Shown here: piece after piece, positions 6,200-14,879 of the stretch | Numbering within the stretch: position 1 is the stretch's first letter | How the letters are laid out: each line of letters opens with the position of its first letter | Source of the DNA: Shackletoniella antarctica | GTDB lineage: Bacteria; Cyanobacteriota; Cyanobacteriia; Phormidesmidales; Phormidesmidaceae | Assembly (NCBI GenBank): GCA_003241845.1 | Contig: QBMN01000033.1 | Coordinates: 1 to 32,495 of the forward strand | Length of the DNA stretch: 32,495 nt | Reading direction: 5' to 3' | Translations under genes and position numbers: made by a program | The notes under the pieces: generated by a model | Database searches by the model: none | Told to the model about the DNA's origin: nothing | What the model saw: only the letters and a program-made list of their open reading frames with translations

Positions 6200-7846
6200 A
6201 TGCAGCGATTTACCCAGCTCTTTTTAGATATTGACGCCACCACCTCGACCAATGAGAAGGTGCGATCGCTCCAGGCCTATTTTCAAACCGCTGACCCCGC
6301 CGACAAGGTTTGGGCGCTGTACCTGCTGCTGGGCAAGACCCGCCGCCGCACGGTGACCTCGCGGGTGCTGCGGGACGTGTTTTTGCAGATTTCTGACATT
6401 CCCGAATGGCTATTTAAAGACTGCTATGCCCAGGTGGGTGATTCTGCCGAAGTGATCGCCCTGCTGCTGCGGGATGTAGACCTGTCGGGACAGTCCCCAG
6501 TCAGTGGCGAGTCCCCCCGTAGGGGCGCACTGCTGTGCGCCCCCACCATCCCCCTACACCAGTGGATGGAGGCAATTATCCCTATGGCAAAGGCGGCAAC
6601 CGACGACGAGCGCAGAGATCTGGTCGTCTCCTGGTGGGCGGCGCTCGACAACACCGAGATCTTGGTGCTCAACAAAATTCTCACCGGGGCGTTTCGGGTG
6701 GGGGCCTCGGCCAAGCTGGTGATCAAAGGCCTCGCCGCCGCCACGGGGGTCACCGAACCGGTGCTGGCCCACCGCCTGATGGGCGACTTTACCCCCACCG
6801 TCGAGTTCTACGCCACCCTCACCAGTGAGGAAGCCACGCAAAATTCCCCCAGCCAGCCCTACCCGTTCTTTCTCGCCACTTCCCTAGACGAAGCAAAATT
6901 CCAGGGCGAAGACTTTTCCCGCTGGCAAGCCGAGTGGAAGTGGGACGGCATTCGCGCCCAGGTGATCAAGCGGGCCGACCAGGTGTTTATCTGGTCGCGG
7001 GGGGAAGATTTAGTCACGCCCCAGTTCCCTGAGATCGAGTCGATGATGGAGAACTTTCCCAACGGCGTGGTGATGGATGGGGAAATTCTCTGCTGGCAGG
7101 ACGGCAGGCCGCTGTCGTTTAACCATCTGCAAAAGCGCCTGGGCCGCAAAAAAGTCAGCAAAAAGGTGATGGCCGACAGCCCGGTGCACTTCATCGCCTA
7201 CGACCTGCTGGAGTCGGGCGGGGTAGATTTGCGGGAGAAACCCTGGGGCGATCGCACCCACCACCTCACCACCCTGCTGAATTTACACACCGCCCCCAAC
7301 CTGCACCAGTCCACCCTCCTCACCTTCAATACCTTTGAAGAACTGGCGGCGCTCAGGGCCAGCGCCCGCGACCACGGAGCCGAGGGGCTGGTGGTGAAGG
7401 CGATCGCCAGCCCCTACCTGGTGGGCCGCAAGCGGGGCCACTGGTGGAAGTACAAAGTTGACCCCATGAGCCTCGACGCCGTGCTGATCTACGCCCAGGC
7501 GGGCAGCGGCAAGCGGGCCAACCTGTTCACCGACTACACCTTTGCCCTCTGGCAGGGCGAGACCCTGGTGCCCTTTGCCAAGGCCTACAGCGGGTTGGAT
7601 AATGCGGAGATCGACGCGCTAGACAAATGGATTCGCCGCCACACCACCGAGCGCTTTGGGCCAGTGCGATCGGTCGAGCCGCTGCATGTGTTCGAAATTG
7701 GCTTTGAGGGCATTGCCGAGTCGACCCGCCACAAATCGGGCATTTCAGTGCGCTTTCCCCGCATTTTGCGCTGGCGAAAAGACAAACCCGCCGCCGAAGC
7801 CGATACGCTGACAGCGGCCCAAGAACTGCTGGCGACCCTGCGGTGA
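6200..7846 (+). CDS. ATP-dependent DNA ligase
   Basis: A 548-aa protein with ligase motifs in order: motif I EWKWDGIRAQV with the adenylated Lys247, motif III DGEILCW, motif IV EGLVVKAI, motif V HWWKYK, then an OB-fold with GIAESTRHKSGISVRFPRI. An N-terminal helical DNA-binding region (1-230) precedes the catalytic core. It resembles the bacterial LigB-type group often found with an MPE exonuclease/Lhr helicase repair cluster; those partners are absent here. It would act beside the essential NAD-dependent LigA, in repair. Residues 106-115 (PRRGALLCAP) are encoded by a palindromic repeat that is otherwise intergenic. This loop lies between helices, so the enzyme may tolerate it. Likely co-transcribed with the upstream deacylase gene. 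Confidence 0.93.
   Translation: MQRFTQLFLDIDATTSTNEKVRSLQAYFQTADPADKVWALYLLLGKTRRRTVTSRVLRDVFLQISDIPEWLFKDCYAQVGDSAEVIALLLRDVDLSGQSPVSGESPRRGALLCAPTIPLHQWMEAIIPMAKAATDDERRDLVVSWWAALDNTEILVLNKILTGAFRVGASAKLVIKGLAAATGVTEPVLAHRLMGDFTPTVEFYATLTSEEATQNSPSQPYPFFLATSLDEAKFQGEDFSRWQAEWKWDGIRAQVIKRADQVFIWSRGEDLVTPQFPEIESMMENFPNGVVMDGEILCWQDGRPLSFNHLQKRLGRKKVSKKVMADSPVHFIAYDLLESGGVDLREKPWGDRTHHLTTLLNLHTAPNLHQSTLLTFNTFEELAALRASARDHGAEGLVVKAIASPYLVGRKRGHWWKYKVDPMSLDAVLIYAQAGSGKRANLFTDYTFALWQGETLVPFAKAYSGLDNAEIDALDKWIRRHTTERFGPVRSVEPLHVFEIGFEGIAESTRHKSGISVRFPRILRWRKDKPAAEADTLTAAQELLATLR
6515..6543 (+). repeat. Palindromic repeat family B inside the DNA ligase gene
   Basis: GGGGCGCAC (6522-6530), TGCT, GTGCGCCCC (6535-6543) is a perfect 9-bp inverted repeat preceded by CCCGTA, the same unit as the tandem copies at 8996-9076. 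It is read in frame as residues 106-115 of the ligase. The sequence match to intergenic copies makes coincidental codon use unlikely. Confidence 0.8.
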
Positions 7847-8995: not shown

Positions 8996-9076
8996 CCGTA
9001 CGGGCGCACTGCTGTGCGCCCCAACCCGATCTCACCCACCGTACGGGCGCACTGCTGTGCGCCCCAACCCGATCTC
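8996..9076 (+). repeat. Two tandem copies of palindromic repeat family B
   Basis: A 38-nt unit beginning CCGTACGGGCGCACTGCTGT occurs at 8996-9033 and again, identical, at 9039-9076 (period 43). Each contains GGGCGCAC-TGCT-GTGCGCCC, able to form a hairpin on either strand, followed by CCAACCCGATCTC. Other members are at 6515-6543 and 14856-14879. The pair ends 14 nt before the -10 box of the S10 gene. Confidence 0.85.
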
Positions 9077-14855: not shown

Positions 14856-14879
14856 CGTAGGGGCGCATTGCATGCGCCC
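14856..14879 (+). repeat. Palindromic repeat, diverged family B copy
   Basis: GGGCGCAT (14861-14868), TGC, ATGCGCCC (14872-14879) is a perfect 8-bp inverted repeat preceded by CCGTAG, the same leader as the family B copies, with T/A in place of C/G at the inner stem position. Further GCGCCC half-sites follow. Confidence 0.65.

Follow-up and report, generated by a model that had tools for sequence, protein, structure and literature searches.

How does a dispersed, mostly intergenic palindrome come to be translated inside a DNA ligase, and what becomes of it there? The question is raised by a gene on the forward strand (6200..7846) of the window, the whole 32,495-nucleotide stretch analysed here. 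This stretch is contig C214 in an assembly of 287 contigs and 4,711,992 bases (genome G000). The gene encodes an ATP-dependent DNA ligase of 548 amino acids. Its open frame matches the profiles TIGR04120 (cisplatin damage response ATP-dependent DNA ligase; 592.2 bits against a cut-off of 400, residues 3-544) and NF006701 (701 bits against 543), and the solved-structure chains that it matches by sequence are DNA ligases, including DNA ligases 1, 3 and 4. Having passed the cut-off, it is assigned by profile to the cisplatin damage response ATP-dependent ligases. As the preliminary description had stated, an exact palindrome, GGGGCGCAC-TGCT-GTGCGCCCC at 6522-6543, is read in frame in this open ligase and encodes residues 106-115, PRRGALLCAP. 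The palindrome has 9-bp arms (6522-6530 and 6535-6543) around a 4-nt loop (6531-6534) and a GTAG tag at 6519-6522; in a 28-nt register this GTAG-tagged REP spans 6519..6546 on the forward strand and codes for most of residues 107-116.

A chance palindrome is ruled out by shuffles: the window holds three matches to the palindrome with at most three mismatches, 0.05 are expected, and 0/100 shuffles reach three. A misread frame or a pseudogene is ruled out by the 548-residue open frame, the TIGR04120 match and the codon-usage score, which is positive on both sides of the element. The REP lies wholly within a real ligase gene, which has domains on either side of it and whose frame it leaves open.

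In the parts of Di Nocera et al. 2013 (PMC3733652) used here, GTAG REPs have GTAG at one end of a short stem-loop, occur singly or in groups, are mostly intergenic and are sometimes in frame, with carriers that include the O. terrae DNA ligase, tRNA synthetases and pseudouridine synthases. The repeats of G000 share with them the tag, the stem-loop, the single and grouped copies and the partly in-frame placement; the ligase element has GTAG itself, of which degenerate forms also count, at one end, and its stem falls within the 5-13 bp of the class. In-frame GTAG REPs, including one in a DNA ligase, have already been published in those parts of PMC3733652. The tag is unpaired in the REPs described there, whereas here it can pair with a CTAC end in several relatives. 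Among the same excerpts we found two Xanthomonas species with different REPs at about the same recB site, and neither a cyanobacterial ligase or LeuS case nor a genus-wide tracing of a coding REP with paired arm changes. Rickettsia palindromic elements (RPE), as introduced in the portions used of PMC3733652, resemble the ligase REP in being palindromic repeats in frame within genes, but have other sequences and hosts, and the intragenic elements of R. conorii are of the CGTC class.

The repeat family across the genome

The 20-mer GGGCGCACTGCTGTGCGCCC has 23 exact copies genome-wide; with at most two mismatches it gives 62 forward and 61 reverse matches (control none), counts that overlap, since a near-palindrome matches on both strands. 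The arm pattern GGGCGCACNNNNGTGCGCCC has 58 copies and its reversed-pattern control 0, and the exact 22-mer of the ligase, type A, is found in 1/26 genus genomes, namely G000, with 6 copies. The four bases before the arm pattern are most commonly GTAG (35/116 strand-wise matches), with 24 GTTG and 23 GTAC. Elhai and colleagues reportedly described, in 2008, small dispersed repeats in cyanobacterial genomes; our literature search, which reached few subscription journals, found no publication on REP turnover inside cyanobacterial genes.

The preliminary description had also placed the same unit in tandem near 9000 and a diverged copy near 14856. The tandem palindromes are present in intergenic DNA on the forward strand, each with one mismatch, at 8998..9021 (palindrome at 9001) and, 43 bp downstream, at 9041..9064 (palindrome at 9044); their tag is GTAC in place of GTAG. 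The diverged intergenic copy (14857..14879, forward strand) does carry GTAG, at 14857-14860, with the palindrome GGGCGCAT-TGC-ATGCGCCC.

A somewhat broader pattern matches 58 sites in the window and in 40 stretches around listed repeat sites. By judgement 10/58 lie in frame in recognisable genes and the rest are apparently intergenic. In addition to the single ligase copy, there are two in LeuS, three in a glutamate synthase and one each in a phosphorothioation-associated methyltransferase, a methionine synthase, an RluA-type pseudouridine synthase and the C-terminal tail of an S-adenosylmethionine hydrolase-like protein. Ligase, LeuS and the methyltransferase score above their profile cut-offs; the other four proteins score below, some being cut by the fetched stretch, and the S-adenosylmethionine hydrolase-like tail is the weakest case. 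The glutamate synthase (L143:1-3099) holds its three REPs and NPNPNPNPNP in frame within about 45 residues.

On contig C45 an IS200-like transposase frame (L130:996-1805) is flanked by two identical REPs. It scores 30.2 bits against PF01797 (Y1_Tnp; cut-off 23) over half of the profile (58-121 of 121), and has a REP-like PVGAHRHAP in its own middle. In another genome of the genus, type B REPs stand at 1382, 2696, 4010 and 5324 of contig C1 (G025), a spacing of exactly 1314 bp that suggests a long tandem repeat.

The ligase loop inside and outside the genus

The REP sits in a genus-specific loop, residues 96-116 (6485..6547, forward strand), between helices 82-90 and 119-126. In an AlphaFold2 model of the ligase (35 sequences, mean pLDDT 87.9, pTM 0.65), residues 100-114 in the N-terminal domain are the only ones with a pLDDT below 50, and the loop is predicted to be disordered.

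The nearest named relatives of the ligase are from filamentous cyanobacterium CCT1, Nodosilinea strains and Phormidium tenue FACHB-1052, judging by which the genus is Nodosilinea. In other cyanobacteria, 23/23 loci (L015-L037) have no REP in the ligase loop; in all 23 the LLL motif and the conserved Trp bound a stretch of 25-35 residues, and the one perfect inverted repeat with arms of at least 7 in these stretches, in L027, is unrelated. These loci rule out that the loop is an ancient one found in every species, the circumstance that the preliminary description had set against an insertion.

Within the genus, 23 distinct ligase loops were read from 21/26 genomes and two named strains; G002, G005, G006, G015 and G022 have no readable ligase loop, and the named loci L009, L011, L012 and L013 duplicate the loops of G007, G018, G004 and G009. 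Ten loops carry a REP, four an eroded REP (G004, G018, G020 and WJT8), five Ser/Pro repeats (G003, L090; G013, L095; G009, L097; G017, L098; G010, L099) and four are short (G001, G014, G019 and G024). The G024 ligase (L119) is split into two frames near residue 268, through a frameshift or an assembly error. The arms of the REPs are GCAC/GTGC in G000, AAAC/GTTT in G012, G023, LEGE 06152 and, with broken pairs, G025, GAAC/GTTC in G007, GAAC/GTTT in G016, and GCAG/CTGC in G021, G011 and G008.

We placed these states on a codon tree built from the ligase itself without the loop (24 rows, being 22 genus loops, G024 omitted, and two outgroups; 5/21 inner branches below 80). The distinction between short and long loops takes one change on this tree, and all loop states together take ten. 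With groups chosen after inspection of the tree, a clade of GAAC/AAAC carriers was rejected (p-AU 7.5e-8), as was a clade of Ser/Pro carriers (p-AU 3.4e-5), and the GCAG carriers may form a clade (p-AU 0.112). The GAAC/AAAC type looks old, because its carriers are not a clade and one of them, G016, branches off first within the long-loop clade.

Close homologues with unrelated codons in this loop, the other circumstance that the preliminary description had held against its view, do exist among the genus ligases (5/23), but on the tree these Ser/Pro loops look like later replacements and not like a loop predating the repeat. They are coded by TCCCCATC-like repeats. The Ser/Pro codons TCCCCAYCYTCCCCAYCYTCC occur in 8/26 genomes, with a maximum of 12 strand-wise matches in G009 (4 in the ligase) and with single matches in G003 and G017, both of them in the ligase; the reversed control has 2 matches, in G022. 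Given these counts, there is little support for a high-copy intergenic repeat as the source of the Ser/Pro codons.

One site, changing arms

The loop of G000 exceeds the short loop by 14 codons. This gain of 42 nt is divisible by three, as had been proposed for an insertion; the flanks are inexact, however, and the net gain does not equal one 28-nt REP unit set against an empty site. A 34-nt spacer (6485..6518, forward strand) separates the RDVDL codons from the tag in G000 and in 6/6 relatives with GAAC/AAAC-type REPs. The G000 spacer is identical to those of the six relatives at 17-21 of 34 bases, and the joint score was reached in 0/20000 shuffles. Without the first 12 nt, which are short-loop-like, the match was reached in 48/50000 shuffles and scored 66, little above the 62 obtained after a shift of -1, which indicates that the C-rich end contributes part of the match. 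The right flank of the relatives' REPs is absent from G000.

The REPs of the ligases are on one strand and in one frame in 10/10 cases, and 9/9 of the further coding copies detected in G000 are read in a different frame (VGAH..AP and similar), a contrast that points to a single entry into the ligase. Given the agreement of spacer, strand and frame, we therefore read the G000 element as sitting at an inherited site. An insertion private to this strain with exact flanks is rejected, both by the six relatives with a REP after a spacer of equal length and by the 42-nt gain. Of the earlier proposal that a mobile repeat became coding in this loop, much stands, as the family is thought to be mobile, the element is in frame, the loop is predicted to be disordered and the 23 loci from other cyanobacteria have no REP in it; the insertion, though, is older than the strain.

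Several independent insertions into a permissive loop, with the present element entering afresh after the loss of an older one, strike us as improbable. The shared strand, frame and spacer length and the similar spacer sequence of G000 and its six relatives speak against this course of events, as does the different frame of the remaining coding copies detected in that genome. It would account for the ten changes required by all loop states, for the sister genome G003, whose ligase has no REP, and for the different 7-nt left flank of the GCAG-type REPs; the REP in LeuS of G002, with flanks that differ from most, also fits it.

A single ancestral insertion into a disordered linker, followed by rewriting of the palindrome, here to the abundant subtype of this genome, is the reading that we favour, with somewhat better than even confidence. 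A GTAG-class REP, a kind of short palindrome whose movement is attributed to IS200-like RAYT transposases, would have entered the loop between two helices in the N-terminal part of the ligase once, in the ancestor of most of the genus. Since the loop is disordered and the reading frame was not broken, the ligase would have tolerated the element, which would have been translated ever since, most probably with neutral effect. Thereafter, depending on the lineage, the palindrome would have been rewritten, have decayed or have been replaced by tandem repeats coding for Ser/Pro. In G000 older GAAC/GTTC or AAAC/GTTT arms would have become GCAC/GTGC, most likely through ectopic gene conversion with other copies as the template.

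After the first insertion, the palindrome has been altered in place or the element replaced, and it is this turnover of the arms that is worth following; its mechanism we infer. Across the eight distinct ligase REP rows, the share of paired cells is 91.7%; in slid controls it is 35-51%. Ten cells are altered on both sides, which 0/500 shuffles matched, and the pairs changed on both sides (58/500) and the further pair types (235/500) were within the range of shuffles; as the rows are related, these shuffle counts are not a probability. Type A and type C, the latter being the 22-mer of the G007 ligase, differ at 4/12 inner bases, so that mutation in place could also yield type A. The type C 22-mer was found in the G007 ligase alone (1/26 genomes), and thus has no exact donor among the sampled genomes.

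Might the palindrome be kept by selection, with an mRNA or DNA hairpin or the peptide itself serving the ligase or its expression? The RNA of 6505-6555 folds stably (-22.4 kcal/mol, z -2.76; 3/200 shuffles equally good) and the arms remain paired between species. The ligase frame nevertheless stays open where the REP is eroded (4/23) or replaced by Ser/Pro codons (5/23), and identical arms occur in several unrelated genes. We consider such selection very unlikely, and the eroded and Ser/Pro loops rule out that the palindrome itself is indispensable.

LeuS and the source of the arm changes

LeuS provides a second carrier in which arms can be compared. In G000 the gene (L137:938-3001; TIGR00396, 805 bits against a cut-off of 548) has two tandem in-frame REPs in the loop after NRVWRLV. 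The search matched 26/26 genus genomes, with weak matches in G005 (best E 2.2e-9), and 25 loops were read (L170-L194), of which 17 carry a REP, six have none (G006, G014, G015, G019, G022 and G024) and two have a long in-frame insert. Among 14 distinct LeuS rows, 99.1% of cells pair and eight are changed on both sides, as high as in 0/500 shuffles; pairs changed on both sides (45/500) and further pair types (253/500) again lay within the shuffle range. GCAC arms are found in LeuS of G000, G002, G012, G017 and G025. These five genomes hold more GCAC copies than the 12 other REP carriers (p 0.012, uncorrected for kinship), also when the LeuS and ligase copies are left out (p 0.018, likewise uncorrected). 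G003 is an exception, with 24 GCAC-type copies but GAAC arms in LeuS and Ser/Pro codons in the ligase.

The same data bear on a way of changing the arms that needs no donor. After one ancestral insertion, arms could mutate in place and then be matched by quasipalindrome correction, that is, by template switching between the arms during replication; the match to the genomic subtype would then be partly chance or shared bias. We regard this as unlikely on balance, though it deserves serious weight. Arms change pairwise in both ligase and LeuS, the type C 22-mer occurs at the G007 ligase alone, and G009 and G004 each have just one GAAC-type copy in the genome, the one in LeuS. Judging by these few-donor cases, the arms can stay or become paired even where donors are scarce. 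In the parts of the two papers drawn on here, template switching homogenises the arms of inverted repeats in yeast coding DNA (PMC8604942) and is proposed for coding palindromes of Nematomorpha mitochondria (PMC6649704); like the ligase REP, these repeats keep complementary arms, but unlike it they are not insertions of a dispersed family. Against template switching, the 20-mer of the G000 ligase, loop included, is identical to 22 other genomic copies, and GCAC-type REPs are found in LeuS of the GCAC-richer genomes. The few-donor cases and G003 tell, in turn, against copying from the genomic pool.

In ligase and LeuS, two housekeeping enzymes that are unrelated, coding REPs may even be rewritten in place repeatedly toward the current REP subfamily of the genome, a generalisation that we put forward tentatively, as possible rather than probable. 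If it holds, short stretches of conserved proteins evolve in concert, driven by a repeat family. Since like arm changes occur in two unrelated genes, rewriting from the genomic pool and template switching can be set against each other directly, a choice that intergenic copies alone cannot settle. One genus displays the series of states as an intergenic palindrome becomes protein, from short loop and insertion through arm turnover to decay and replacement. As for the long LeuS inserts, the one in G001 matches no Pfam family at E 0.1; G001 and G016 (L192, L194) have 186 and 193 amino acids between the conserved motifs.
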